This document shows positions 8,816 to 23,447 of a stretch of DNA of 64,000 nt, in pieces. Numbering within the stretch: the stretch's first letter is position 1; each line of letters opens with the position of its first letter. The translations under genes were made by a program, and so were the position numbers. The DNA comes from Hungatella hathewayi WAL-18680 (GTDB lineage: Bacteria > Bacillota > Clostridia > Lachnospirales > Lachnospiraceae). The DNA is taken from NCBI RefSeq assembly GCF_000235505.1, contig NZ_JH379027.1, positions 1,039,569 to 1,103,568 of the forward strand. Direction: 5' to 3'. The notes under the pieces were generated by a model. It did no database searches. It was not told the origin of the DNA and saw nothing but the letters and a program-made list of their open reading frames with translations.

Positions 8816-9691
8816 TTAATGTGAGTCTAACAGAGAGACAAATTTTTGAGCAGGCAGGCTCAGTGGGTGTTCTTTGCTGTATATTAGACTGATTTGCGTG
8901 TGGATTTTTGGAGATATCTTTACGATGGAGATATTGTTATTCGTAAGCTGCATAATAGGGTTCTGGGTTAACAGTGCGATACCTGCCCCCTTTTCTACTA
9001 ATGCAATGATATTCTCACTTCGTCTGCCAGTATAACCAACAATTGGCTCAAAACCAGCTTTTTTACATTTGTCAACACATAAGTGATACATAAATGTATC
9101 ACTGGACAATAGTAGCAGTGTTTCATTTGCCAATTCTTCCAGACCGATCGCATCTTTTTCGGCCAAAGGATGAGTGCGTGGCATAATGGCGGCAAGTGTA
9201 TCTTCAGCAAATAAGATTTGCTGGAACTGAGAACCAAGATCCTCACTGCTTCGAACAAAAGCGAGTTCTAGTTTGTTGTTTTCTATCATTTCGATTAATT
9301 GAATGGAGTCCTGTTCAATAAGGTTCAGGGTAAAATCCTGATACTCCTGCTGAAAACGGAAAAGAAGATCAATAATTTTATATTGTGACATGGAAGGGAT
9401 TGATCCGATGGATAAGGAGCCATGTGAACTTCTTTTGTAATTGAACAGAGCTTTTTGATATTTGGATTGAATCTGTGTGATCTCGCTGGCATAGGGGAGA
9501 AAGGTTTTTCCAAATTCACTGAGCGAGATATTTCGTGTAGTTCTATCAAAAAGCGGTATGCCAAGTTCTTCTTCCATAGATTTAATATGTCTTGAAAGAG
9601 AAGACTGTGACATAAATAGCTGGTCGGCTGCAGCCAGGTAATTGCCGACTTCTGCAAGTACCACAAATTCTCTTAGATAGTTGATTTCCAT
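8816..9691 (-). CDS. LysR family regulator of the divergent catabolic operon
   Basis: 291-residue LysR-type regulator. Residues 1-60 form the winged helix (MEINYLREFVVLAEVGNYLAAADQLFMSQSSLSRHIKSMEEELG), shown here only by its flanks, and residues ~90-290 the periplasmic-binding-like effector domain. AAAGGAG lies six bases before the chosen ATG. It is transcribed away from the operon starting at 9846, the standard LysR arrangement, and two inverted repeats lie in the shared intergenic region. Codon use is AT-rich like the operon and unlike the HAD gene 20 bases downstream. The inducer is probably the transported substrate or a breakdown product, which is inference. Confidence 0.88.
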   Translation of the reverse strand: MEINYLREFVVLAEVGNYLAAADQLFMSQSSLSRHIKSMEEELGIPLFDRTTRNISLSEFGKTFLPYASEITQIQSKYQKALFNYKRSSHGSLSIGSIPSMSQYKIIDLLFRFQQEYQDFTLNLIEQDSIQLIEMIENNKLELAFVRSSEDLGSQFQQILFAEDTLAAIMPRTHPLAEKDAIGLEELANETLLLLSSDTFMYHLCVDKCKKAGFEPIVGYTGRRSENIIALVEKGAGIALLTQNPIMQLTNNNISIVKISPKIHTQISLIYSKEHPLSLPAQKFVSLLDSH

Positions 9692-9729
9692 GTAGTCTCC
9701 TTTGAGCATTAAGAAACTGTAAAAATTGA

Positions 9730-9767: not shown

Positions 9768-9796
9768 TTGATTGTCAATTTCGCATAATATATAAT
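9768..9796 (+). promoter_or_regulatory. sigma-A promoter of the island operon
   Basis: TTGATT (9768-9773), 17 bp, TATAAT (9791-9796), 49 bases before the first gene. The strong -10 with a weak -35 fits an activator-dependent promoter. Confidence 0.7.
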
Positions 9797-9845: not shown

Positions 9846-10886
9846 ATGATTATAGATTCAAACATGTATTGGTTCCCGGAAGAATTATTTGAGAATGATA
9901 GGCTATTGGAACAATTTCTTCAGGAAATACCAGAAGAATATGGCTGGTATGGTCACTGTGAAGAGATTGTGGGAACAGATGGCTTAAAGCAAATTGTTCT
10001 TGAAAAACCGAAAGGATTTCAAAATTTGAATTATGCGCAGCATGATTACATTCTGGAAGAGCAATTGAAGGATATGGATGCGGCAGGCGTAGATAAAGCG
10101 GTGCTGAAGGTACCTTGCTGTCAGGAATGGATGAGCGTTTCTATGTGTCGCTATTTTAACAATGAAATGCATAAGCATGCAGAAAAGAGTGGTGGCAGAA
10201 TGATACCATTAGGAATTGTTCCGCCATATGATACAAAAGAAAATATGGAGGAATTGATTCGGTGCTATGAAAAACTAGGTGTCAGGGCAATCCAGATGTC
10301 AGCACATTATGGTGATTCCTATTTAGACGATGAAAAGTTTTCGGCATTTTTTGAGAAGGTAAATGAATTAGAAATGACAGTTTATGTTCACCATACACCA
10401 GTGCCGGTTGAGTATGATTCCTTTTTTGAATATAATAATGTAAGAAGGTCCTATGGCAGGTGTGTAGACCAGGGGCTGGCAGTTGGACGAGAATTGTTTA
10501 GTGGATTTTTTACAAAATATCCAAACATTAAAATAATTCATTCCATGTTGGGTGGCGGCTTTTTTGCAGTCAGCAATATGATGTTTCCGAAGAAAGCAAA
10601 GGTGGAGACTATAAATCGTTTTAAATCTGACAACGAGAAAGTGGTAGAGCAGTTTAAAAATAATATGTTTTTTGAAATGTCCCATGCGCAGCCGTGGGGA
10701 AAATCCCAGCTCCTATGTGCCATAGAAAGTCTGGGAGCTGACCATATCATTTTTGGTACTTCTTATCCGGTTCGAAAAGAATGGTTATTAGAAGGGGCTG
10801 GCTTCGTAAAAGAGTTGGAGATTACAGAAGAAGAGAAAGAATTAATTTTAGGAAAAAATGCACAGAGCCTTTACGCGATTGAATGA
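9846..10886 (+). CDS. amidohydrolase-fold (ACMSD-like) protein with altered metal site
   Basis: 346-residue cytoplasmic TIM-barrel protein of the amidohydrolase-2 (ACMSD/gamma-resorcylate decarboxylase) superfamily, recognisable from the N-terminal MIIDSNMYWFP, the barrel strand VYVHHTPVP (His182-183), KIIHSMLGGGFF and the C-terminal GADHIIFGTSYP. Canonical members have D-x-H-x-H at the start and G-S-D-Y-P near the end; here the two His are Asn6 and Tyr8 and the Asp is Ser306, and the His before GG is Met234. These are the usual metal ligands, so either metal binding is lost or another chemistry is used. Family members are decarboxylases, hydrolases or lactonases. First gene of the island operon; its stop overlaps an upstream ATG of the next gene. 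Confidence 0.8.
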   Translation: MIIDSNMYWFPEELFENDRLLEQFLQEIPEEYGWYGHCEEIVGTDGLKQIVLEKPKGFQNLNYAQHDYILEEQLKDMDAAGVDKAVLKVPCCQEWMSVSMCRYFNNEMHKHAEKSGGRMIPLGIVPPYDTKENMEELIRCYEKLGVRAIQMSAHYGDSYLDDEKFSAFFEKVNELEMTVYVHHTPVPVEYDSFFEYNNVRRSYGRCVDQGLAVGRELFSGFFTKYPNIKIIHSMLGGGFFAVSNMMFPKKAKVETINRFKSDNEKVVEQFKNNMFFEMSHAQPWGKSQLLCAIESLGADHIIFGTSYPVRKEWLLEGAGFVKELEITEEEKELILGKNAQSLYAIE

Positions 10887-10897
10887 GAGGGATAAAC

Positions 10898-12190
10898 ATG
10901 TATCGATTAAATCAAAACGGTATTTTTGAAAAAGAGGTTGTGGAAGGCGTAGCAGAATCTTATGTCCAAATGGGATTTGATGCGCAGGCCATGTTCTATT
11001 ATCCGTCAAATGAAGCAGACATAAAATCTGTCGGTGTTATTTTAATGCATTGTGACCAGAATTATATGGCATTAAATATGGGCCCTCAGTTGGCAAAGCA
11101 GGGGTATCAGATATTGGCCTGTGATTCGGATTTTGGTGAAATTGAAAACAAATTTAAGATATTAAACAAAACTATGAAATTTTTGCGAAGTCTGCCGACC
11201 GTAGAAAAAGTAATACTAATGGGTCACAGTGGCGGAGCAACTTTGATGACAGCTTATCAGAGCATTGCAGAAAATGGTGCAGAGATATATAAGGGACCAG
11301 AGAAACTATACGCCACAACCATTCAGGAAGAATTGATTCCAGCAGACGGCATCATGTTAATCGATGCGAATTATGGAAATGCAGTGATGACATTGCTGAG
11401 TCTTGATCCGGCAATTGAAGAAGAAGGAAACGGAATCAAATTGAATCCTGAATTTGACATTTTTGACACTGCCAATGGATATGATCCGGAAGGAGCAAAG
11501 TATAGCGAAGCGTTTAAAGAAAAATACTTTAAAGCGCAGGCAGATAGAAATAAACGTCTTATTCAAAAGGCATTAGAGCGGCTGGCATTAATTGAGGAAG
11601 GGAAAGGTTCTTATGTAGATGATGAACCTTTCATTATTGCGGCAGCAAATCAGCCAAAGCCCAATAACCGGTTATTACCGGAGGACCTTCATCTTTTAAG
11701 CCATACAAAGAACGCTTATGACTTACTTCACGGTGATGGAACCATAACAAACGAAAGGATATATTGTGTTAGAACTCCTGAAATAGACCGCTGTTTTTCC
11801 TCAACCTATCATATGGGAGCCAACAAAAATACGGTAAGAAGTTTCTTGAGTTCCCAGGCAATTGAAACGACAGATGATTTTTGTGTGAAAGAAGACGGCA
11901 TCATTGGACTAAACTGGGATTCTTGTTATGCATCACCGATTGGTAATATTAAAGATATTCGTGTACCAATGTTAACAATGGGATTTACAGGCAGTTATGA
12001 ATATCTTGCAGCAGAAATGATTTTTGAAAGAGCAGTTATGGAAGAAAAAACGATTGTATTTGTGGAGGGTGCCGGGCATATGTTCACACCAAACCGTGAT
12101 GCAGAGCAAATACATGGCAGTTTTGGAGATACGGAAAAAATAATATATGATTATATGGGACAATGGCTGAACCGTTTTGTATCGAAATGA
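10898..12190 (+). CDS. alpha/beta hydrolase, function unknown
   Basis: 430-residue protein without a signal peptide. The nucleophile elbow ILMGHSGGAT (Ser111) and a late His in VEGAGHMFTPN (His394) support an alpha/beta-hydrolase fold with an intact Ser-His pair; an acid residue cannot be assigned. A ~200-residue insertion between them (residues ~130-330) is unusually large and probably forms a lid. Such proteins hydrolyse esters, lactones or C-C bonds. The start was set at ATG 10898, spaced by GAGAGGGATAAAC; the ATG at 10883 overlaps the previous stop and lies before the ribosome site. Same operon as the amidohydrolase and SDR. Confidence 0.75.
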   Translation: MYRLNQNGIFEKEVVEGVAESYVQMGFDAQAMFYYPSNEADIKSVGVILMHCDQNYMALNMGPQLAKQGYQILACDSDFGEIENKFKILNKTMKFLRSLPTVEKVILMGHSGGATLMTAYQSIAENGAEIYKGPEKLYATTIQEELIPADGIMLIDANYGNAVMTLLSLDPAIEEEGNGIKLNPEFDIFDTANGYDPEGAKYSEAFKEKYFKAQADRNKRLIQKALERLALIEEGKGSYVDDEPFIIAAANQPKPNNRLLPEDLHLLSHTKNAYDLLHGDGTITNERIYCVRTPEIDRCFSSTYHMGANKNTVRSFLSSQAIETTDDFCVKEDGIIGLNWDSCYASPIGNIKDIRVPMLTMGFTGSYEYLAAEMIFERAVMEEKTIVFVEGAGHMFTPNRDAEQIHGSFGDTEKIIYDYMGQWLNRFVSK

Positions 12191-12207
12191 GAGGAGGTGA
12201 TGAATCA

Positions 12208-12987
12208 ATGATGCTGGAAGGAAGAACGTGTGTATTTGCGGGTGCGACAGGGGGAGATGGTGTTGTAGCAGTCATAGAACTGTGCAGAGGCGGTATGAAT
12301 GTTGTAATGATGACTCACCAGATGGGACAGGCAGAAACGTTGATGAACAAAATCAATGGTATGCAGTTAAAGGGGAAATGCTTTGTTGTTCAGGATGGAG
12401 AATGCCAGACACCGGTCAAGACAGATGAAATAGTCTATCGTGAAATATATGAAAGATTTGGCTCTATCGACGTCGTGATCAGTAATACGGGAGATGATGG
12501 CTTTGAAGACAGCATCGACATGGTGGATACAAAAAATTTGTTAAGGGGGGTAGATCATCTGCTGGGGGGCAGTTATACCATGTTAAAAAATGCATTGCCT
12601 TATTTGCGGAAAAGTAAAGCGGCCAGAGTGATTTTTATGACAACAGTAGAAGGCGTAAAAGGAGGAGTCAATGAGAGCTTTGTCAATGCGGTTGCAAAGG
12701 GGGCAGTGCTTTCCCTGACGAAGAACTGTGCGGCGAGACTTGCTGTGGATAATATCAATGTAAACTGTATTGCAAAGGGGCCGATTGAACGGTTAAAACC
12801 GTTATTGGAAAGAGATAAAAGCTTACCACCGGTAAAAGATACAACAACATTTTTGGATGATGTTCCCATGGGAAGAATGGGAACTCCAGAAGATATTGCG
12901 CACGCAATTTGTTACCTGGCAAGTGAGGAATCCTCTTACATAACAGGAACTGTATTGGATGTAAGCGGCGGAATGAACGTAACGTAA
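12208..12987 (+). CDS. SDR-fold oxidoreductase lacking the YxxxK tyrosine
   Basis: 259-residue Rossmann protein. The glycine motif GATGGDG (residues 12-18), an acidic-free NAD(P) region and the C-terminal signature (NVNCIAKGPIER, then YITGTVLDVSGGMN) place it among classical short-chain dehydrogenases. The catalytic tetrad is not canonical: Lys164 is preceded by Asn160 where YxxxK has Tyr, and the usual Ser is Thr145/146. It may be a degenerate or non-redox SDR. The start at 12208 has AGGAGGTGA seven bases upstream. It begins 17 bases after the alpha/beta hydrolase gene and belongs to the same AT-rich operon. Confidence 0.75.
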   Translation: MMLEGRTCVFAGATGGDGVVAVIELCRGGMNVVMMTHQMGQAETLMNKINGMQLKGKCFVVQDGECQTPVKTDEIVYREIYERFGSIDVVISNTGDDGFEDSIDMVDTKNLLRGVDHLLGGSYTMLKNALPYLRKSKAARVIFMTTVEGVKGGVNESFVNAVAKGAVLSLTKNCAARLAVDNINVNCIAKGPIERLKPLLERDKSLPPVKDTTTFLDDVPMGRMGTPEDIAHAICYLASEESSYITGTVLDVSGGMNVT

Positions 12988-13027
12988 ACGATTTGAGCCA
13001 TAAATGGGCAAATATAAGGAGGTTACT

Positions 13028-14692
13028 ATGAGAGGGAAAAAGATTACAGCATTATTATTATGTGCAACAGTTACCATGTCTTTACTTGCAGGATGCGGCA
13101 GTTCTTCCAGTGAAGAGGCAGTTGTAACAGGTACCACAAGTGAACAGGAAAAAGTTGCAGCAGAAAATGCAGAGGCACCGAAAGTAGACACGACCAGAAA
13201 GACAACCGCAGATAGTGATGAGAGATATCAGAAGGTTTCTATTGGACTAATCAGTGATCCAAAGGATTTAAGTCCGACCGCTATGAATGGTGATAACAGT
13301 AAGTTATATATATATTATAATTTTTATGAAACATTATTTGATTTTAGAAACAATGAATACATACCCATTTTAGCAAAAGGTTATACAGAGGTTGATGAAC
13401 TGCATTGGGATGTTGAAATATATGATTACATTTATGATACGAACGGTAATCATATCACGGCTAATGATGTTGTTTTTTCCTTGAATCTTTTAAAAGAATC
13501 CGGAAATGCATTTAAGTTTGATAGTTTTGAGAGCGCTGAAGCAATGGATGATTACACAGTCAGATTTACATGGACATCTCCAATTGATTCCTTGGGAGCA
13601 TTGGAATGGCCATGGTGTAGAACCTGTATTATATCCCAGAAATCTTTTGAAGAAGGAAACTTTACAGATGCTCCGGTTGCAACCGGTCCTTATAAAGTAA
13701 CTGATTTTGTTTCTGGGTCTCACTGTATCCTGGAGGCCAACGATGATTACTGGCAGAAAGAGGAATTGCGTGATGCAGAACATCTGGCAAACGTTCAGAC
13801 GATAGAATATGATATTATTGCTGAAACATCGCAGCATGTAATCGCATTAAGTACAGGCCAGATTCAGTATTCCGAGTATATCCCTGCAGAAAACCTGGCA
13901 GATTTCAGTGATGGTGGACAGTATGCAGATGGAAATGATGTATATGTCTCACAGGGAAGCGGTCTTTACATGTTAATGTGCAACAATTACGGTGGTAAAA
14001 TAACAGAGGATGTCAACCTTCGGAAAGCAATTTACTGGGCATTAGACAATGAAGCTATTGAAAAAGCAACTGGAAATACGGTGGCAGCAAAAGCATTAGG
14101 AACAAGATTCTTTAGCGATTATCAGAGCTCCTGGGAGGAGAATCCTGAAAATTATATGGCATCCTGCAATCTTGATAAGGCAAAAGAATATTTGGAGAAG
14201 TCTGATTATAATGGGGAAACGTTAGTTTTATTGGCGCCAAGCGATGAAACAATCAAAACTATTATGACGATGATGCAGGCACTGCTGATGCAGGTTGGCA
14301 TCAATGTGGAAATCGTAGCAGAAGAAGCGGCTTTGGCTCAGACGGATATGCTTGACCCGGCCAAATGGGATTTGCTGATTAGCCAGATTGGCGGCGGCTC
14401 CCAGGTAGGTGAATGGAACCGTCCTATGAACAACAAGGAATTTGGCACAGAATATAACATGGCATTTATCGCGGATGATACCTTACAGGAAAAATTGTTA
14501 AATGTTATGTCATTAGCAGGACATACCGATGAAAATACGACAGATATGGTTGACTATATTCTGGAAAATGGGTATTACTATGCGCTCTGTTCGCCAGCAA
14601 CAAATGCAGTTTACAGCGAAGACTTTGCAAAACTTGTATATCGTGAAAGTGAATTCCTGCGTGCAGGTGCATGTGACTATTACCTAGATTAA
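13028..14692 (+). CDS. ABC transporter substrate-binding lipoprotein, family 5
   Basis: Extracellular lipoprotein of 554 aa. The signal peptide ends in a lipobox SLLAGC with Cys23 as lipid anchor, followed by a Ser/Glu-rich linker. The body is the SBP_bac_5 (OppA/DppA) fold, recognised from GLISDPKDLSPT, the ITANDVVFSLNLLK motif and ATGPYKVTDF. Family-5 proteins bind oligopeptides, nickel complexes or, in some bacteria, oligosaccharides. The gene context (GH3 enzyme and beta-phosphoglucomutase in the same operon) makes a glycoside or sugar-bearing ligand plausible. Start at 13028 has AAGGAGG six bases upstream. Confidence 0.88.
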   Translation: MRGKKITALLLCATVTMSLLAGCGSSSSEEAVVTGTTSEQEKVAAENAEAPKVDTTRKTTADSDERYQKVSIGLISDPKDLSPTAMNGDNSKLYIYYNFYETLFDFRNNEYIPILAKGYTEVDELHWDVEIYDYIYDTNGNHITANDVVFSLNLLKESGNAFKFDSFESAEAMDDYTVRFTWTSPIDSLGALEWPWCRTCIISQKSFEEGNFTDAPVATGPYKVTDFVSGSHCILEANDDYWQKEELRDAEHLANVQTIEYDIIAETSQHVIALSTGQIQYSEYIPAENLADFSDGGQYADGNDVYVSQGSGLYMLMCNNYGGKITEDVNLRKAIYWALDNEAIEKATGNTVAAKALGTRFFSDYQSSWEENPENYMASCNLDKAKEYLEKSDYNGETLVLLAPSDETIKTIMTMMQALLMQVGINVEIVAEEAALAQTDMLDPAKWDLLISQIGGGSQVGEWNRPMNNKEFGTEYNMAFIADDTLQEKLLNVMSLAGHTDENTTDMVDYILENGYYYALCSPATNAVYSEDFAKLVYRESEFLRAGACDYYLD

Positions 14693-14697
14693 TATAG

Positions 14698-14748
14698 ATG
14701 GCAGTATCTCGTTTGGAAACATCGTTGTGGAGAACTGGATACTGCCAT
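14698..14748 (+). other. intra-operon hairpin between binding protein and permease genes
   Basis: ATGGCAGTATC (14698-14708) pairs perfectly with GATACTGCCAT (14738-14748) across a 29-base loop. No real U-tract follows, so a partial terminator or an mRNA 3'-end stabiliser is more likely than full termination. Such elements raise the amount of binding protein relative to membrane components. Confidence 0.6.
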
Positions 14749-14779
14749 TTTATGAAGACCATATGAATGGAGAAATAAT

Positions 14780-15739
14780 ATGGGGAAATATATTGGCAAA
14801 AGACTGCTTTGGATGATTTTTATTGTAGTTGGGACAGCATTTGTAATTTTCACAATTCTTTATTTTACACCGGGTGACCCTGCGGTTGTAATCGCGGGGG
14901 GAAATGCCAAAGCTGAAGATGTGGAAAATCTGCGTCGTATGATGGGACTGGATCAATCCTATTTTGTGCAGTTAAAAGAATTTTTGTATCATACATTTTT
15001 TAAATTTGATTTAGGAACCTCATGGGTTTATGGAAAACCTGTTCTGGATGAACTGCTTATCAGACTTCCGAGAACCCTGATTATTGGATTAACGGCCATG
15101 GCTTTAAATCTTACAATTGGTTTACTGATGGGGATTTTTGCGGCAACACATGAAGGGAAGTGGAGTGATTCTCTTACCATGGGAATTGCAATGATATTTA
15201 TCTCCTGCCCGGATTTTTGGGTTGCATTGATGATGATATTACTGTTTTCATCAAAACTGGGCTGGCTTCCATCCTACGGTATTGGCGGCCCCCAGTATTA
15301 TATTATGCCTATTCTATGTAGTGCTTTAGGTGGCATTGCGGTAAATGCAAGGCAGACTCGTGCAAGTATTCTCGGTGTATTTCGAGAGGATTATATTACA
15401 ACAGCCAGAGCAAAAGGACAGAAGGAAAGAAGAGTTGTATTTGGACATATGCTTCCTAATGCATTGATGCCAATTATTACATCAATCGGAAATGGTTTTG
15501 CCCGCGTAGTTGCTGGTTCAGCAGTTATTGAAAGTGTATTTTCTATTCCGGGTGTGGGCCTTTATCTGCTAACGGCCATTAATAGCAGAGATTATCCGGT
15601 TGTACGTGCCTGTGTATTGTTCTTCGCGATATTTACGGCAGTTGCAATGTTAATAGTTGATCTTGTCTATGCATTTGTTGATCCGAGAATCAGAGCTCAG
15701 TATTCACATGCAAGAAAGGGGACGAAACATGAAAAATGA
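14780..15739 (+). CDS. ABC transporter permease, DppB/OppB type
   Basis: 319-residue membrane protein with about six hydrophobic helices. The N-terminus (MGKYIGKRLLWMIFIVVGTAFVIF region) and the EAA loop DYITTARAKGQKERRV with the downstream HMLPNALMP are diagnostic of the OppB/DppB permease family. It forms the translocation pore with the next gene product. The ribosome site GGAGAAATAAT precedes ATG 14780. Its end overlaps the start of the OppC-type gene by 11 bases. Confidence 0.92.
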   Translation: MGKYIGKRLLWMIFIVVGTAFVIFTILYFTPGDPAVVIAGGNAKAEDVENLRRMMGLDQSYFVQLKEFLYHTFFKFDLGTSWVYGKPVLDELLIRLPRTLIIGLTAMALNLTIGLLMGIFAATHEGKWSDSLTMGIAMIFISCPDFWVALMMILLFSSKLGWLPSYGIGGPQYYIMPILCSALGGIAVNARQTRASILGVFREDYITTARAKGQKERRVVFGHMLPNALMPIITSIGNGFARVVAGSAVIESVFSIPGVGLYLLTAINSRDYPVVRACVLFFAIFTAVAMLIVDLVYAFVDPRIRAQYSHARKGTKHEK

Positions 15740-16586
15740 AAAAAGAACCTCGCTTTTTGCAGAAACCATCCAGCGCATTTGGGCGAATATTGGTGCCAGG
15801 GCAGGACTTGTTTTATTGGGAATAATTGTATTGGCATGTATTTTTGCACCGTTGATTGCACCATATGGTCTAAATGAAATGGATTTGTCAAACATGTTTA
15901 AAGGACCAAGTGCAAAACATATCTTTGGTACTGACGGGATGGGGCGTGATTTGTTTAGCCGGTTATTGTATGGTGGACGTTATTCGCTTGCCTTGGGAAT
16001 CTGTGCAGCGATTGCTGGTTCTGCAATTGGTACTATCATTGGAAGTATCGCCGGATATTTCGGTGGAAAAGTAGAGACGATTATCATGCGCTTTATGGAT
16101 ATCTGGTCATCTCTTCCAAGCATGCTTTTGTGTATTTTGATTTCTGCTGTTTTGGGTGCCGGTTTTTTTAATACCGTATTGGCTCTTTCTGTGGGAAATG
16201 TTCCTATTGGCGTGCGTTTAATCCGAGGACAGATTTTATCGGAACGTTCTAAAGAATATTTGGAGGCAGCTGAATCTATCAATTGTTCAAAAATCAGTAT
16301 TATGTTCCGGCACTTATTACCAAATGTTATTTCACCAATTATCGTAGATGCTACTATGGGTATTGGTATGACGATTACTATGGCAGCGGCACTTTCTTAC
16401 ATTGGCTTGGGAGTTCAGCCACCTACACCAGAATGGGGAGCTATGTTAGCTGATGCACGTACTCATATTTTGAACTACCCATACTTAATTATGTTTCCAG
16501 GACTTTTTATTGCATTGACCGTAACAGCAATTAATTTAATTGGGGATGGACTTCGAGATGCCATGGACCCCAAATTACGGAAGTAG
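15729..16586 (+). CDS. ABC transporter permease, DppC/OppC type
   Basis: 285-residue partner permease. HIFGTDGMGRDLFSRLLYGGRYSL is represented by its core GTDGMGRD, the fingerprint of the OppC/DppC family, and the EAA loop reads EYLEAAESINCSK followed by FRHLLPNV. It has an N-terminal cytoplasmic segment and about six transmembrane helices. The start at 15729 follows AAAGGGGACGAAAC; the longer frame upstream lies inside the previous gene. It is coupled to the OppB-type gene by overlap. Confidence 0.92.
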   Translation: MKNEKRTSLFAETIQRIWANIGARAGLVLLGIIVLACIFAPLIAPYGLNEMDLSNMFKGPSAKHIFGTDGMGRDLFSRLLYGGRYSLALGICAAIAGSAIGTIIGSIAGYFGGKVETIIMRFMDIWSSLPSMLLCILISAVLGAGFFNTVLALSVGNVPIGVRLIRGQILSERSKEYLEAAESINCSKISIMFRHLLPNVISPIIVDATMGIGMTITMAAALSYIGLGVQPPTPEWGAMLADARTHILNYPYLIMFPGLFIALTVTAINLIGDGLRDAMDPKLRK

Positions 16587-16598
16587 GAGGAAGAATAA

Positions 16599-17573
16599 GT
16601 GAGTGAAGAGAAAAAATTTCTATCGGTACGAAATTTGGAAGTCATCTATACTTCCGGGAAAAAAACCGTGCAGGCAGTTAATAAAGTATCCTTTGACCTT
16701 GAAAAAGGCGAAACACTTGCGCTTGTTGGTGAAACCGGGGCAGGAAAAACAACAATTGCAAAATCTATTCTCGGTATTTTACCTAATCCTCCTTCAAAAG
16801 TTCTGGGTGGAGAAATATGGCTGGAGGGTGAAGAACTTCTGGGAATGCCAGAATCGAAGAAACTGAAAATCAAAGGCGAAAAAATTGCAATGATTTTTCA
16901 GGACCCAATGACAGCTTTAAACCCTTTGATGACAGTTGGAGACCAGATTGCAGAAGGACTTTTATTACATAATGATTATACAAAAGAAGAAGCAGTGAAA
17001 CAGTCAGAAGAGATGCTGGAAATGGTCGGTATTCCGAAGGCCAGATATATAGAATATCCGTTTGAATTCTCAGGTGGGATGAAACAGCGTGTTGTGATTG
17101 CCATGGCTTTAGCATGCAATCCATTATTGCTGCTGGCAGATGAACCGACAACAGCTTTAGATGTAACCATTCAGGCACAGGTCTTGGATTTGATAAAAGA
17201 ACTGAGAAACAGGCATAACACGTCTATGATTCTGATTACACATGATCTTGGGGTAGTAGCACAGACCAGCGATTATGTTGCGGTAGTTTACGCAGGTAGT
17301 ATTATAGAATATGCATCAAAAGAAAAGTTATTTTTGCATCCGGCCCATCCATATACAATTGGGTTGTTTGGCTCCCTTCCGAGCATGACAAGAGGGCAGA
17401 AGCGTCTGAAACCTATCGCAGGTTCACTGCCCGACCCTACCTGTCTTCCGGAAGGCTGTCCCTTTGCACCTCGTTGTTCTCAAGCAACGGAACTATGTAA
17501 ACAGGATATTCCTTTTGTGGAAGTGGAAGAAGGACATGTTTGCCGTTGCTGTAATCTGAAAGTGGAGGATTAG
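16599..17573 (+). CDS. ABC transporter ATPase, DppD/OppD type
   Basis: 324-residue nucleotide-binding subunit. Walker A is GETGAGKTT, the Q-loop is FQDPMTALNP, the signature is EFSGGMKQRVVIAMAL and Walker B is LLLADEPTTALD. The C-terminal extension has the oligopeptide-transporter motif with conserved cysteines (PEGCPFAPRCSQATELC), which in this subfamily binds an Fe-S cluster or metal. It uses a GTG start with TAGGAGGAAGAATAA upstream. It pairs with the following ATPase to drive import. Confidence 0.93.
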   Translation: MSEEKKFLSVRNLEVIYTSGKKTVQAVNKVSFDLEKGETLALVGETGAGKTTIAKSILGILPNPPSKVLGGEIWLEGEELLGMPESKKLKIKGEKIAMIFQDPMTALNPLMTVGDQIAEGLLLHNDYTKEEAVKQSEEMLEMVGIPKARYIEYPFEFSGGMKQRVVIAMALACNPLLLLADEPTTALDVTIQAQVLDLIKELRNRHNTSMILITHDLGVVAQTSDYVAVVYAGSIIEYASKEKLFLHPAHPYTIGLFGSLPSMTRGQKRLKPIAGSLPDPTCLPEGCPFAPRCSQATELCKQDIPFVEVEEGHVCRCCNLKVED

Positions 17574-17575
17574 AC

Positions 17576-18526
17576 ATGTCATTGATTGAGGTTCGTAATT
17601 TAAAAAAATACTTTAAGGTTCCTACCGGAACAAACCATGCGGTTGATGATGTCTCTTTTACCATTGAAAAGGGAGAAACATTAGGCGTTGTTGGTGAATC
17701 AGGATGTGGTAAGAGTACACTTGGCAGAACATTAATCCGGTTACAGGATGCGACAGATGGACAGATTTTATTAAATGGTCAGGACATTACCAAGGTCAAA
17801 GGCAATGAGTTAAAAAAAGTTCGTGAAAAAATGCAGATTGTATTCCAGGACCCATATTCCAGTTTGAATCCAAGAATTCGTATTGAATCTACAATTATGG
17901 AGCCATTAAAGCATTCTGGGTTATATAAGACAAAGAATGAACTGAAAGGGCAAACAAAGAGACTGATGGATTTAGTTGGCATTGATGAAAGACTAAGTCA
18001 ATCTTATCCACATGAATTAGATGGAGGCCGCCGCCAAAGGGTTGGGATTGCCAGGGCATTGGCTTTAAATCCTGAGTTTATTGTTTGTGATGAACCGGTT
18101 TCCGCATTAGATGTTTCTATTCAGGCGCAGGTATTAAATCTGCTTATGGATTTACAGGATAAAACTGGTATAGCCTATATGTTTGTTACGCATGACCTAT
18201 CTGTTGTCCGGCATATTTCTAATTCTATCTGTGTCATGTACCTAGGGCAGATGGTGGAAAAAGCTTCGACAGAAGATTTATTTAAACATACGCTACATCC
18301 ATATACAAAGGCTCTTTTATCGGCGATTCCATCAACAGATATTTATCAACCGATGCAGAGAGTGGAATTAAAAGGGGAGATAACGTCTCCTATTAATCCC
18401 AAGCCGGGATGTCGTTTTGCATTGAGGTGTCCGTATGCTACGGAAGCATGTTCCCAGCCTCAAAAATTAGAGGAAATAGAACCACATCATTTTGTGGCAT
18501 GTTGTAGAGTTCGTGAACTAAACTAA
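17576..18526 (+). CDS. ABC transporter ATPase, DppF/OppF type
   Basis: 316-residue second ATPase, starting three bases after its partner. Walker A is GESGCGKST and Walker B is FIVCDEPVSALD. The signature reads ELDGGRRQRVGIARAL where most family members have SGGQRQR, a known natural variant in this subfamily. The C-terminal Cys motif (KPGCRFALRCPYATEAC) is present. It completes a five-component importer in the order binding protein, B, C, D, F. Confidence 0.93.
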   Translation: MSLIEVRNLKKYFKVPTGTNHAVDDVSFTIEKGETLGVVGESGCGKSTLGRTLIRLQDATDGQILLNGQDITKVKGNELKKVREKMQIVFQDPYSSLNPRIRIESTIMEPLKHSGLYKTKNELKGQTKRLMDLVGIDERLSQSYPHELDGGRRQRVGIARALALNPEFIVCDEPVSALDVSIQAQVLNLLMDLQDKTGIAYMFVTHDLSVVRHISNSICVMYLGQMVEKASTEDLFKHTLHPYTKALLSAIPSTDIYQPMQRVELKGEITSPINPKPGCRFALRCPYATEACSQPQKLEEIEPHHFVACCRVRELN

Positions 18527-18536
18527 GGAGTACCAA

Positions 18537-20213
18537 ATGATACAAAACATTGATTTAGCGAAGCGGCCATTTTATTTAAATCAAGATCAGGAAGCCTGGG
18601 TGAAATGCAAACTGGAGTCCATGAATGAAAGACAGAAAGTTGGACAGCTTTTTTGTTTGATGGCCGGGGAGTACAGTGAAGAAGAACTGGAAAAACTGAT
18701 AAGTGAATATTATGTTGGGGGAGTGTTATTCAGACCAATTCATACGAAGGAAGAATTACAGGCAAAGTATGAACGGTTAGACCGAATCGCACCAATTCCT
18801 CTTTTAAAGGCTGCAAATTTGGAAGAAGGAGCAGCAGGCGGGTACTTAGGAGGTACAAAATTTGCATACCAGGAAGGAATCGCTGCAACCGGCAATCCTG
18901 ATATGGCAGAAAAATTTGCAAAAGTGACAGCAAAAGAAGGTCTGGAAGCGGGAATCAACTGGACTTTTTCACCGGTTGCGGATATGGATATTAATTTTAG
19001 GAATCCTATAACCAATATTCGGACGTTTGGAAGTGATTTTGCAACGGTTAGAGATTATACCCGGATTTTTGTAGAAACGATTCAACAATATGGGATGGCG
19101 GCTTGTGCAAAACATTTTCCAGGAGACGGTGTAGATTATCGGGACCAGCATCTTCATCCAACGTATAACACCTTGTCAGCACAGGAATGGTATGATACAT
19201 ACGGTCAGATTTATCGGAATATGATAGAGGGAGATCTTCTTAGTATTATGGTTGGGCATATTGTGCAGCCGGCTGTTGAACGGGATGTGAATCCGAATTT
19301 GACAGAGGAAGAACTACTGCCAGGTTCTCTCAGCAGGGAGTTAGTAACAGGTATATTGCGCCAAAGATATCATTTCAATGGAGTGATTACGACGGATGCA
19401 ACGATTATGGGTGGATATACTATGGCCATGGAGAGAAAAAAAGCAATTCCTGCAACCATTGCGGCCGGTTGCGATATGATTGTCTTTACGCCGGATTTTT
19501 ATGTGGATTATCAATTTATGCTGAATGGTTTGAAGGATGGGAGTGTTACAAAAGAACGTCTGGATGAAGCCGTGATCAGGATTTTGGCGTTAAAAGCTAA
19601 AGTGGCGTGTGAAAATCCGGTAAAACGGATGCAAGGAAAAGAGTTTGTTTGTAGTATGAGTGATGTAGTAAAGTATACGAACGAGTGCGCCGATGAGGCA
19701 GTTACACTGGTAAAGAACCATAGAGACATTCTTCCAGTCAGACCAGGAAAATATAAAAAAGTGAAGCTCATCAATGTAGGGAAAGAAGAAACGGTAGATG
19801 GTAATTTAAGTGACATTGTATCCGATTACCTGAAAAAGGAAGGCTTGAAAGTAGAACGGTATGATCCGTATGTAGAGGAACTTCACAGTTCAATATGTGT
19901 GAAACATGATGTTTTAACGATGTATATTTGTTGTAAAGAAGCAGAAAGTAATGTGACTACTGTCAGAATATCCTGGTGTATGAAACATGCATTAGATATA
20001 CCAAGATTTGTAAATGAAGAAGACAGTGTTTTTATTGCATTTGGAAATCCGTATCTTCTCCAGGACGTTCCAAGAATTCCGGTGTTTATCAATGCATACA
20101 CAGCAACAAAAGTTACAGTAGAAGCGGCACTTGATAAAGTGTTTGGTAAAAGTGAATTTAAAGGAATAAGCCCGGTTGATCCTTTTTGTGGATTACTGGA
20201 TACCCATTTATAA
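18537..20213 (+). CDS. GH3 family glycosidase or glycoside phosphorylase
   Basis: 558-residue protein without a signal peptide, so it acts on imported substrate. The GH3 N-terminal TIM barrel is clear: AKHFPGDG (192-198) followed by the Asp203-x-His205 dyad, and the nucleophile region NGVITTDATIMGGY with Asp287. The Asp-His dyad as acid/base is the NagZ-type feature; bacterial GH3 enzymes of that type include beta-N-acetylglucosaminidases and enzymes reported to act as phosphorylases. Residues ~370-558 form the GH3 C-terminal alpha/beta-sandwich region. Located between the importer and a beta-phosphoglucomutase gene, it probably releases a sugar or sugar-1-phosphate from the imported glycoside. 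Confidence 0.85.
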   Translation: MIQNIDLAKRPFYLNQDQEAWVKCKLESMNERQKVGQLFCLMAGEYSEEELEKLISEYYVGGVLFRPIHTKEELQAKYERLDRIAPIPLLKAANLEEGAAGGYLGGTKFAYQEGIAATGNPDMAEKFAKVTAKEGLEAGINWTFSPVADMDINFRNPITNIRTFGSDFATVRDYTRIFVETIQQYGMAACAKHFPGDGVDYRDQHLHPTYNTLSAQEWYDTYGQIYRNMIEGDLLSIMVGHIVQPAVERDVNPNLTEEELLPGSLSRELVTGILRQRYHFNGVITTDATIMGGYTMAMERKKAIPATIAAGCDMIVFTPDFYVDYQFMLNGLKDGSVTKERLDEAVIRILALKAKVACENPVKRMQGKEFVCSMSDVVKYTNECADEAVTLVKNHRDILPVRPGKYKKVKLINVGKEETVDGNLSDIVSDYLKKEGLKVERYDPYVEELHSSICVKHDVLTMYICCKEAESNVTTVRISWCMKHALDIPRFVNEEDSVFIAFGNPYLLQDVPRIPVFINAYTATKVTVEAALDKVFGKSEFKGISPVDPFCGLLDTHL

Positions 20214-20228
20214 GGAGAGGAACGGCAA

Positions 20229-20864
20229 GTGAATGCAATTATTTTTGATTTAGATGGGGTTATTTGTTTTACAGATCACTATCATTTTCTGGCATGGAAA
20301 CAGATTGCTGATAGCATTGGCGTGTATTTTGATGAACAGGTCAACGACAGACTTCGTGGTGTAAGCCGTATGGATAGTCTGGATATTATTTTGGAAAAAT
20401 CAAAAATAGAATATTCTCTGGAAGAAAAAAGAATATTGGCTGAAGAAAAAAATAAAAGATATGTTCAATTATTGAATCATATTTCCACTGCAGATTTGTC
20501 TGATGAAGTGAAGGATGTACTGCAGGAATTATGTAAGCGTGGCTATAAATTGGCGATTGGCTCAAGTAGTAAAAACACAAAATACATCTTAAAGCAAATT
20601 GGATTAGAACATTATTTTGATGCCGTTAGTGATGGCACCATGATTAAGAAATCAAAACCAGATCCGGAAGTATTCTTAAAAGCGGCAGAGATGTTGCAGG
20701 AGAGACCAGAATCATGCCTGGTTGTTGAAGATGCATTAGCTGGTGTGGAAGCTGCATGGCGGGGGGGCTTTTTCAGTGCAGGAATGGGGGAAGCAGCAAC
20801 CCATAAACATGTAACTTTTCCTATAAAAAGACTTTCGGATTTATTAATTATTATGAAGGAATAG
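20229..20864 (+). CDS. pgmB: beta-phosphoglucomutase
   Basis: 211-residue HAD-family phosphomutase. The N-terminus AIIFDLDGVI has the Asp7 nucleophile and Asp9 acid/base of beta-PGM, and the cap segment LRGVSRMDSLDIIL is the family's substrate-binding signature. The motif IKKSKPDPEVFL and the Mg-binding VVEDALAGVEAA complete the fold. It converts beta-glucose-1-phosphate into glucose-6-phosphate via a 1,6-bisphosphate intermediate. It uses a GTG start after AAGGAGAGGAACGGCAA. Its presence implies that the operon yields a beta-sugar-1-phosphate. Last gene of the AT-rich block. Confidence 0.9.
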   Translation: MNAIIFDLDGVICFTDHYHFLAWKQIADSIGVYFDEQVNDRLRGVSRMDSLDIILEKSKIEYSLEEKRILAEEKNKRYVQLLNHISTADLSDEVKDVLQELCKRGYKLAIGSSSKNTKYILKQIGLEHYFDAVSDGTMIKKSKPDPEVFLKAAEMLQERPESCLVVEDALAGVEAAWRGGFFSAGMGEAATHKHVTFPIKRLSDLLIIMKE

Positions 20865-20964: not shown

Positions 20965-21846
20965 ATGGAATTATTACAATTGCGGTATTTTCTCACGGCG
21001 GCGGAGTATCAGCACATGACGAAAGCGGCGGAGCATTTACAGATTGCACAGCCGGCGCTGTCGCAGGCCATTCACAGACTGGAGCATGAGCTGGGGGTGT
21101 CCCTGTTTGACAGGAAGAGCAGGAGCATTGAGCTTAACGAGTCGGGGCGGCTGTTACAGAAGCGGCTGACGCCTATCATGCGCGCGCTGGACAGGATTCC
21201 GGGGGAACTGAGAGCGGGGCAGGATGTGGCGAACCACACCATCCACTTGAAGATTCTGGCCGCGTCTACCCTGGTGACCAACTGCATTATCGCGTACCGG
21301 GCCCTGCATCCGGATGTGAATTTCCAGCTGTATCAGTCGGATACCAATGAGGATTTCGACCTCTGCGTGACGGCCATCCGCTCGGACGTGCCCTGCGAGC
21401 TGGAGGATTACAGCGTGATGCTGGAGGAGGAGTTATACCTGGCCGTTCCGGCGAAATCCCAGTACGGGGGAAGAGACTCCATCAATCTGTCGGAGACGGG
21501 AAATGACGGCTATATCTGCCTGGCCGGTTCCAGGCCCATCCGCAAGATTTGCAACAGCTATTTTGCGGAGGCGGATTTTGTGCCAAATGTGATATTTGAG
21601 AGCGATACCACGGAGTCCGTGCGGAATCTGATTGCCGCGGGGCTGGGAATCGGGTTCTGGCCCAAATATTCCTGGGGAGACATGTCCACCAAACATGTGG
21701 TGCTGCTTCCCATCAAGGACCAGGTCTGCCGCAGAAGCATTATCCTGATTCAGTCACCGAGGGGGAAACAGCATCCTATCCTTGGGGATTTCTGCAATTT
21801 TTTTGACGGAAAATGCGAAGTGGCTGTAATGTTTTTTGTCTGCTGA
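20965..21846 (+). CDS. LysR family transcriptional regulator
   Basis: 293-residue LysR-type regulator. The winged helix occupies residues 1-60 (LLQLRYFLTAAEYQHMTKAA, then AQPALSQAIHRLEHELG), and the effector domain follows. GC content returns to that of the ATP synthase region, so it is not part of the AT-rich block. It is not divergent to any gene; the pgmB gene upstream and the DUF4474 gene downstream run in the same direction, so its target is unclear. Confidence 0.85.
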   Translation: MELLQLRYFLTAAEYQHMTKAAEHLQIAQPALSQAIHRLEHELGVSLFDRKSRSIELNESGRLLQKRLTPIMRALDRIPGELRAGQDVANHTIHLKILAASTLVTNCIIAYRALHPDVNFQLYQSDTNEDFDLCVTAIRSDVPCELEDYSVMLEEELYLAVPAKSQYGGRDSINLSETGNDGYICLAGSRPIRKICNSYFAEADFVPNVIFESDTTESVRNLIAAGLGIGFWPKYSWGDMSTKHVVLLPIKDQVCRRSIILIQSPRGKQHPILGDFCNFFDGKCEVAVMFFVC

Positions 21847-21938: not shown

Positions 21939-23447
21939 ATGAATTGGATTGTGATTGCTGCCATAGTTATTGTGGTGCTGATACTGGCGGCTGTTTTGAT
22001 ATGGTTTATACGGATGAGACATTTTAAACCCACCAGGGATAAAAGAGTACAGCAGGATATGCTGAATCACGACCTGAAGGAAACCGGATTTGCCTATGAG
22101 CTGAGAGGAGATTATTTTTATTCACTGATGGATTGCTGGCAGCGGGAGATGGGGTATTGCAGGCTTTACGATGAAAATGCCCATCTGTTTAACATGATTA
22201 TGGACTGCGAGCCGGTGACATTTTCCTACGGAGGAAAGAAATGGCTGATTGAGTTCTGGAAGGGGCAGTATGGAATTACCACCGGAGCGGAAATCGGGAT
22301 TTATAATACGGTGGACGGAACCGTGGATACGGAGAAGTTCCAGGGAACGTTTTATGAGGCGGCCAATGACGGGGAGAGACTTCCCATGTCGTTTGTGCTG
22401 AAGAAGAACGGGAAAACGATCATGAAGAGGAAGGACGTTCACTGGTGGCTTACCGGATTTAAGCTGGGTGAGTTTACGGAGCCGGACGCCCTGACTATGG
22501 ATATTACGATGAAGTTCCCGGACAGGGGAATGTGTTTTGCATTTGTCAACGCCCTTCAGGAGATTGGGTATCAGAAGAGAGAGTACCGGGTGCGGAGAAA
22601 TGAAGTCAGAATCCATTACGGAAGACCTCATGGGACACAGCCGCTGGCGAACAACCATTTTCAGAGAGCACTGGTCCAGCAGACTAATGAGAATAACTGC
22701 GGATTGTATCGGGTGGCGACTATCCGGTTTAAGAATACGCTGGATAAACTGGAATTTATAAAGTCGTCCGTGCCGGAATTGTATGAGATTTTTGTGAATT
22801 CGCTGTATGGGAAGGGACTGTATGATTTGTTTGGATGGCTGTTGGATTTGATTCATGGTGGACACAGACCGGAACCGCCGGTGCCGCCAGAGCCGCCGTG
22901 CCCGGAGCCACCGGAACCGCCGTGCCCGGAGCCACCGGAACCGCCGTGTCCGGAGCCACCGGAACCGCCGTGTCCGGAGCCACCGAAGCCGCCATGCCGT
23001 CCGGAGCCACCGAAGCCGCCATGCCGTCCGGAGCCGCTGTGTCGTCCGGAGCCGCTGTGTCGTCCGGAGCCGCCGTGCCGACCGGAGCCGCCGTGTCGTC
23101 CGGAACCGCCATGCCGTCCGGAACCGCCGTGTCGTCCGGAGCCGCCGTGTCGTCCGGAGCCGCCGTGCTGTTCGAGGCCGCCGCATTTCCAGGGGATGCC
23201 GTACCGCCAGTATGGTTCGGACTTACCTTTTGGGGAGGCGCAGGAGAGAGGGATGGAAAACTACCGGAATCAGGAAGACAGTCAATATATGCCGTATGTT
23301 CCGGAAACGCAGCATGTTCCAGGGGTGCCGGATTATGAGGATTACCTGAATTACAAGCATGGTACCGTAAATGACTATCCCGATATGTCTGGGCAGTTTT
23401 CCGACAGCCCACAGGAGGAAGACCAGGACAACTGGGACTTCCGGTAA
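21939..23447 (+). CDS. membrane-anchored DUF4474 protein with Cys/Pro-rich repeat tail
   Basis: 502 aa. Residues ~3-25 form a transmembrane anchor (MNWIVIAAIVIVVLILAAVL). Residues ~45-300 match the DUF4474 pattern I know from clostridia (FYSLMDCWQREMGYCRLYDE, MIMDCEPVTF, WLIEFWKGQYGITTG). Residues ~310-411 are a repeat built from CPEPPEP and then CRPEPP units, rich in Pro, Cys, Glu and Arg. The C-terminal ~90 residues are polar and Tyr/Pro/Asp-rich. The function of DUF4474 is unknown. The tail could be an extended wall-spanning or disulfide-linked rod if it is outside the membrane. The metallophosphoesterase gene starts six bases after its stop, so the two are co-expressed. Confidence 0.75.
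   Translation: MNWIVIAAIVIVVLILAAVLIWFIRMRHFKPTRDKRVQQDMLNHDLKETGFAYELRGDYFYSLMDCWQREMGYCRLYDENAHLFNMIMDCEPVTFSYGGKKWLIEFWKGQYGITTGAEIGIYNTVDGTVDTEKFQGTFYEAANDGERLPMSFVLKKNGKTIMKRKDVHWWLTGFKLGEFTEPDALTMDITMKFPDRGMCFAFVNALQEIGYQKREYRVRRNEVRIHYGRPHGTQPLANNHFQRALVQQTNENNCGLYRVATIRFKNTLDKLEFIKSSVPELYEIFVNSLYGKGLYDLFGWLLDLIHGGHRPEPPVPPEPPCPEPPEPPCPEPPEPPCPEPPEPPCPEPPKPPCRPEPPKPPCRPEPLCRPEPLCRPEPPCRPEPPCRPEPPCRPEPPCRPEPPCRPEPPCCSRPPHFQGMPYRQYGSDLPFGEAQERGMENYRNQEDSQYMPYVPETQHVPGVPDYEDYLNYKHGTVNDYPDMSGQFSDSPQEEDQDNWDFR
22870..23172 (+). repeat. in-frame coding repeat, CPEPPEP and CRPEPP units
   Basis: About 300 bases of short GC-rich tandem units encode roughly four CPEPP(E/K)P units followed by about nine CRPEP(P/L) units. 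Codons vary little between copies (mostly TGC/TGT, CGT/CGG, CCG, GAG, CCG), as expected for recent slippage expansion. Confidence 0.9.

Follow-up and report, generated by a model that had tools for sequence, protein, structure and literature searches.

When a GH3 enzyme is encoded directly ahead of a beta-phosphoglucomutase (beta-PGM), is its substrate cleaved by water or by phosphate? The question is raised by a gene pair in the window, as the whole 64-kb stretch of DNA analysed here is called, for which a sequence-only reading had proposed phosphorolysis, pointing to an Asp203-x-His205 dyad in the GH3 protein and to pgmB 15 bases downstream. Both features are present as described: the dyad reads Asp203-Gln204-His205 within KHFPGDGVDYRDQH, and a gap of 15 bases separates the GH3 gene from a pgmB whose product matches TIGR01990 end to end. 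Together with eight upstream genes, the pair looks like one operon (9846-20864) that would be co-transcribed, and the locus is laid out as follows.

8816-9709, minus strand: LysR-type regulator, from direct reading of the sequence; divergent from the operon
9846-10886, plus strand: amidohydrolase-superfamily protein; nearest solved relatives are 5-carboxyvanillate decarboxylases, with key positions altered
10883-12190, plus strand: alpha/beta-hydrolase-like protein, probable esterase; GHSGG motif, no Pfam match at 0.001
12163-12987, plus strand: short-chain dehydrogenase/reductase (SDR); the listed ORF overlaps the previous gene
13004-14692, plus strand: solute-binding lipoprotein, family 5 (PF00496, 186 bits); lipobox-like LLAGC read in the translation
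14780-15739, plus strand: ABC permease of the Opp/Dpp/Nik type, from family matches
15657-16586, plus strand: ABC permease of the Opp/Dpp/Nik type; the listed ORF overlaps the previous gene and the true start is probably further in
16599-17573, plus strand: ABC ATPase of the OppD type, from family matches
17576-18526, plus strand: ABC ATPase of the Opp/Dpp type, the second of two; 10 bases separate it from the GH3 start
18537-20213, plus strand: GH3 protein, putative BglP-type beta-glucoside phosphorylase, from homology, motifs, tree and model
20229-20864, plus strand: pgmB, beta-phosphoglucomutase, from TIGR01990, PDB beta-PGM matches and motifs
20965-21846, plus strand: LysR-type regulator just downstream of pgmB; operon membership uncertain

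The gap between the divergent regulator gene and the operon holds promoter-like sites, with a 12/12 match on the minus strand (9778-9750) and a 10/12 match on the plus strand (9768-9796); such sites number 38 against 35.3 expected, which makes any single site no more than suggestive. High-ranking solved relatives of the lipoprotein (13004-14692) include the agrocinopine-binding AgaA and AccA. The structural model of the esterase-like protein is weak (pLDDT 61), and its structure match supports only the description 'alpha/beta hydrolase'. At the His of GHMGE and the Asp of DYP in 5-carboxyvanillate decarboxylases, which we take to be catalytic or metal positions, the amidohydrolase (9846-10886) aligns Met and Ser, a variant kept by its relatives in L088 and L098, two loci with similar GH3 genes; a decarboxylase role for the window protein is not borne out by this residue-by-residue comparison. 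Downstream of the second LysR-type gene, an ORF at 21939-23447 contains a long low-complexity Pro-Glu-Pro-Pro/Cys repeat (about 22830-23350) that is open in several frames.

The GH3 protein and its closest solved relative

The GH3 ORF (18537-20213, plus strand) is complete and encodes 558 aa, with a match to Pfam PF00933 of 196 bits against a cut-off of 27. Its N terminus has no hydrophobic signal visible on direct reading, so the protein is read as cytoplasmic, and the nucleophile is assigned to Asp287 in TTDATIM. The pgmB ORF (20229-20864, plus strand) is likewise complete, with a GTG start and 211 aa, and an AAGGAG ahead of it overlaps the GH3 stop codon. PgmB scores 237.3 bits against TIGR01990 (cut-off 189.4) over model positions 1-187 of 187, and it carries DLDGV at 7, HFLAW at 19, RLRGVSR at 41, GSSSKN at 111, SKPDPE at 142 and VVEDA at 165, which we take to be the catalytic motifs of beta-PGM.

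The top solved relative of the window GH3 is BglP (PDB 5VQD/5VQE, named BglX in the entry; AUG44408.1), a protein of metagenome origin matched at 434 bits over residues 7-557, with the runner-up at 129 bits. In a Foldseek search with an AlphaFold2 model of the window protein (pLDDT 89.6, from the 20-row alignment A1), 5VQE/5VQD rank first (TM 0.91-0.92, about 40% identity), and ranks 3-17 are NagZ/N-acetylglucosaminidase-type entries (TM 0.73-0.81). The two proteins share full-length homology, one fold over the whole length, an identical KHFPGDGVDYRDQH, the Asp-Gln-His acid/base motif and Asp nucleophile, and a clade of the tree described below, although they are about 40% identical and BglP is not the window's nearest branch. 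The solved NagZ-type beta-N-acetylglucosaminidases 3SQL and 3BMX also share the Asp-x-His dyad and the fold, but their Asp-Ser-His is not found in the window GH3, which has Asp-Gln-His instead, and their KHFPGHG is replaced by KHFPGDG; moreover, the window protein stays below the NCBIfam NagZ cut-off (NF003740, 108 bits against 207). By its full-length match to BglP and the clade common to both, the window GH3 is, as far as homology can place it, a further member of the already known BglP kind of enzyme.

PMC8950772 describes BglP, obtained through functional metagenomics, as a GH3 phosphorylase that acts on beta-glucosides with retention and uses beta-Glc1P and beta-GlcNAc1P as donors in the reverse reaction, and it attributes the entry of phosphate to the His/Asp dyad. 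The other GH3 phosphorylase given there is Nag3 of Cellulomonas fimi (PMC8950772).

The dyad had also been offered as an argument for phosphorolysis in its own right, and here the sequence-only reading holds in part: the dyad is there, but taken alone it is weak evidence. LpqI and RmNag3, as NagZ-type enzymes, presumably carry the same Asp-x-His dyad. Both are reported as hydrolases with phosphate present and without phosphorylase activity (LpqI, PMC6572805; RmNag3, PMC6987092), and the phosphorylase status of GH3 enzymes with a His acid/base is disputed in the same sources. These NagZ-type hydrolases rule out the dyad alone as proof, and because of them it is the specific relationship to BglP, not the dyad, that carries the case.

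Linkage of GH3 genes to beta-PGM genes

The window's own genome contains 16 GH3 genes and four beta-PGM genes above the cut-off. By coordinates, two of the 16 lie within about 2 kb of such a beta-PGM gene, namely the window gene (15 bases) and C3:93224 (about 2.0 kb, opposite strand), and none lies within 10 kb of the remaining 14. Two of the four beta-PGM genes are near a BglP-clade GH3 (the window and L047), and the other two stand beside GH65 (L050, L051).

A GH3 search at E <= 1e-90 in 200 genomes of the window's family gave 40 matches in 26 genomes; the 40 family genes examined consist of 39 of these (G161:C206 was left out) and one further GH3 gene in L081. From 572 GH3 relatives in named genomes, the best 80 by similarity make up the named loci. 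Nearby beta-PGM genes were sought with a profile of the own genome's four copies, and a locus is called linked when one lies within 6 kb; this limit and the clade cut of 395 bits against the window protein were both chosen after the data had been seen. Linkage was found for 13 of the 17 family genes scoring at least 395 bits versus none of the 23 scoring lower, with L047, whose pgmB lies about 2 kb off on the opposite strand, counted as linked. Among the named loci (best 80 of 572), 49 of 80 are linked, or 32 of the 44 in which both flanks reach 6 kb, and beta-PGM lies within 100 bases of the GH3 gene or overlaps it in 27 of the 80. The linked named loci include beta-PGM fragments at contig ends (L090, L095) and inside a contig (L122). 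Linked loci come from Vibrio (L111), Bacillus (L102), Neobacillus (L108), Paenibacillus (L122), Treponema (L132), the Acholeplasmatales (L126) and an actinomycetote MAG (L121, where the listed start of the beta-PGM ORF runs into the GH3 gene), and GH3-beta-PGM linkage thus recurs beyond the window's family, in other families and phyla. In L162, a second, sister-like GH3 lies 3.0 kb from a beta-PGM gene that is closer to the clade GH3 of the same locus.

Four of the 17 family clade loci are unlinked (L053, L054, L055 and L060), full flanks being present in L060 only. The same holds for 31 of the 80 named loci (best 80 of 572), 12 of them with full flanks (L088, L101, L113, L115, L116, L118, L123, L124, L128, L143, L145 and L156). 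At the level of whole genomes, beta-PGM was detected at 1e-50 in 31 of the 200 family genomes: in all 13 with a BglP-clade GH3 and in 18 of the 187 others (Fisher p 2e-12, uncorrected for relatedness), the latter comprising 3 of 13 genomes with only lower-scoring GH3 relatives and 15 of the remaining 174. It is also present in genomes whose clade GH3 locus shows none nearby (G191, G197, G147, G007).

The split between linked and unlinked genes is also seen in a 74-row tree built by a quick LG+G4 method, made up of the 40 family genes, 30 hand-picked loci of the 80 named ones (the other 50 were left out), BglP, two NagZ-type chains and the GH3 half of a fusion protein; the run warned of long outgroup branches. 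One clade of 48 rows (SH-aLRT 95) holds the window, BglP and every beta-PGM-linked row of the tree, and its sister clade of 23 rows holds no linked row, a split that agrees with the 395-bit cut. When rows with short flanks are omitted (33 linked and 25 unlinked rows), the linkage label changes 6 times on the tree versus at least 14 times (mean 19) in 200 shuffles. The nearest row to the window GH3 is L047, the second copy in its own genome (62%). Arg66, Asp151, Thr159, Asn160, Ser471, Asn472, Thr474 and Tyr506 are kept in the BglP clade and not in the sister clade. Some linked clade members (L052, L087, L135) carry His as the middle residue of the dyad, so Gln at this position is not strictly tied to linkage. 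The sister clade (L048, L049, L066-L074, L076-L086), none of whose 23 family genes has beta-PGM within 6 kb, carries Asp-x-His in which x is Gln, Ala or His.

Proposed reaction and competing explanations

A route consistent with these data would begin with a beta-glucoside, perhaps a plant phenolic and possibly acylated, being imported intact by the Opp-type ABC transporter. The cytoplasmic GH3 would build a covalent glucosyl intermediate on Asp287, and His205, paired with Asp203, would protonate the leaving aglycone; because no carboxylate base would stand beside the sugar, phosphate rather than water would attack and beta-D-glucose 1-phosphate would be released with retention. PgmB would turn this product into glucose 6-phosphate, so that the sugar could enter glycolysis without a kinase step, and the upstream esterase-like, amidohydrolase-like and dehydrogenase proteins may act on the acyl group or the aglycone. 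Judged from sequence, this combination of import, phosphorolysis by GH3 and conversion by PgmB is highly probable as a whole. We infer the reaction, the sugar (glucose) and the direction; least certain are the nature of the aglycone and what the upstream enzymes do. Phosphorolysis to beta-glucose 1-phosphate, as the sequence-only reading had proposed, is the best-supported reading, through homology to a characterised phosphorylase and clade-wide beta-PGM linkage; the GH3-pgmB pairing itself is real and recurrent, and phosphorolysis explains it most simply. The clade-wide coupling to beta-PGM provides an independent, genome-based argument for a phosphorylase in one clade, which it separates from the sister clade, and the survey names loci, named isolates included, where phosphorolysis could be checked. 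Among the literature matches listed, subscription papers being outside their scope, none connects GH3 glucoside phosphorylases to beta-PGM or tannase pathways, or this clade to phenolic-glucoside genes.

It appears unlikely that the GH3 is an ordinary NagZ-like hydrolase whose adjoining pgmB serves another enzyme, for example a GH65 phosphorylase elsewhere. GH65 phosphorylases act on alpha-glucosides with inversion. Operons of GH65 with pgmB follow the same logic as the window, a phosphorylase yielding beta-glucose 1-phosphate with beta-PGM nearby, whereas the window GH3 would act on beta-glucosides with retention (PMC8950772). NagZ-type GH3 hydrolases do exist according to the LpqI and RmNag3 papers cited above (PMC6572805; PMC6987092), the two other over-cut-off pgmB genes of the own genome adjoin GH65, and at nine loci GH65 lies within 8 kb of a clade GH3 with no beta-PGM within 6 kb (L053, L089, L096, L103, L104, L106, L110, L116, L118). 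However, the closest solved relative is a characterised phosphorylase and not NagZ, and a GH65 match was found nowhere in the 64-kb window. Of the 49 linked named loci (best 80 of 572), only L091 and L097 have GH65 within 8 kb, and of the 13 linked family loci none does, which rules GH65 out as the cause of the adjoining pgmB in the other 47 and in all 13.

Somewhat more improbable is a phosphorylase for a sugar other than glucose, such as N-acetylglucosamine, accompanied by a PgmB of relaxed specificity. The end-to-end match of PgmB to TIGR01990 speaks against it, as does Gln204, which is common to the window and BglP where 3SQL and 3BMX have Ser. In the BglP study, exchange of a key Gln for Ser reportedly moved preference from glucoside to N-acetylglucosaminide, and this Gln probably occupies the position of Gln204 in the window protein. 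What favours another sugar is the His in the middle of the dyad in the three linked loci noted above, along with the use of both beta-GlcNAc1P and beta-Glc1P by BglP as reverse-reaction donors (PMC8950772). A synthetic direction, in which PgmB would make beta-glucose 1-phosphate and GH3 would glucosylate phenolics for detoxification, is very improbable, even if glycoside phosphorylases are reported to run in reverse in vitro (PMC8950772). The operon encodes a binding-protein-dependent ABC importer, which argues against synthesis. The beta-PGM equilibrium, which strongly favours glucose 6-phosphate, does so as well.

Substrate context and other partners of beta-PGM

With phosphorolysis of a beta-glucoside as the preferred reading, clues to the substrate were found in the loci grouped as closest to the window (n=16: L052, L087-L099, L119, L147). 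Thirteen of them match feruloyl-esterase-like (BD-FAE) or tannase-like queries and nine have UbiD (within 10 kb), versus none and two, respectively, of the other 80 clade loci and none of either in 22 sister loci. With a score of 340, the L087 esterase exceeds the cut-off of 300 for NCBIfam tannase B, and the BD-FAE-type protein of L091 has no NCBIfam match at 1e-30. The solved proteins nearest to the UbiD of L087 are decarboxylases of 3,4-dihydroxybenzoate (681 bits) and protocatechuate (648 bits), and the UbiD proteins of L087 and L119 fall under the VdcC cut-off (473 and 450 against 650).

The window itself stands outside this phenolic cluster, with both tannase/BD-FAE and UbiD absent within 10 kb of its GH3; it holds esterase-like and amidohydrolase-like proteins where the closest loci have tannase/BD-FAE and UbiD. 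Elsewhere in its own genome there is a tannase (599 bits over joined pieces, cut-off 300), and the genome gave no VdcC match. The closest loci without tannase/BD-FAE (L088, L095, L119) have the amidohydrolase-like, esterase-like or SDR protein of the window. The two gene sets do overlap in places: L098 combines an amidohydrolase relative with BD-FAE, and UbiD is present in L119 as well. From this pattern we infer that the window's upstream genes may do a comparable job by other means. The context of the closest loci suggests phenolic glucosides as substrate, which for the window is a lead only.

Altogether, the type of enzyme is already known, and the recurrent beta-PGM coupling and the phenolic genes of close relatives hint at its purpose. 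We tentatively propose, with slightly more doubt than belief, that the subclade of the window GH3 provides the phosphorolytic step in the breakdown of acylated phenolic glucosides, for example galloyl- or hydroxycinnamoyl-glucosides. In such a pathway, esterases would deacylate, GH3 would phosphorolyse the phenol (even 1-O-acyl) beta-glucoside, PgmB would bank glucose 6-phosphate and a decarboxylase would remove the phenolic acid. Such a context, if true, would add an energy-saving route to plant phenolic deglycosylation, and the pathway would supply a natural role for GH3 phosphorylases and tie the deglycosylation of tannin-type compounds in anaerobes to energy saving.

The family sample contains 47 beta-PGM genes, of which 14 lie within 6 kb of a BglP-clade GH3, one is fused to a NagZ-like GH3, 22 have GH65 in the stretch examined and 10 have neither partner. 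The ten with neither GH65 nor an intact BglP-clade GH3 in that stretch (L174, L175, L177-L180, L183, L184, L189, L198) may mark further enzymes that form beta-glucose 1-phosphate; L183 has its beta-PGM beside a GH78-like gene, and the short contig that carries L174 ends in a GH3 fragment.

The fused gene (L169:7488-9767, minus strand) encodes a single protein of 759 aa, with a NagZ-like GH3 domain ahead of a complete beta-PGM (TIGR01990, 230 bits, cut-off 189). Its GH3 half has Asp-Ser-His, KHYPGFGASPVDSH and an Asp in LIITDS, is distant from BglP and scores 84 bits against the window GH3; a search of 398 genomes at 1e-60, run with no positive control, gave no relatives of this half. By its predicted domains, L169 is a separate case of a His-type GH3 domain tied to beta-PGM. 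Further beta-PGM frames of about 785-825 aa, in four other genomes, were considered as fusions and rejected, since L221, L222 and L223 are adjacent but separate GH3 and pgmB genes and L220 is beside GH65; after these frames (L220-L223) had been read, L169 is the only GH3-beta-PGM fusion seen. A fusion of another kind occurs in L064 (6947-9076, minus strand), where pgmB is joined to an alpha-rhamnosidase-like domain (GH78) and immediately adjoins a BglP-type GH3 gene, arranged as if for rhamnosyl-glucosides.
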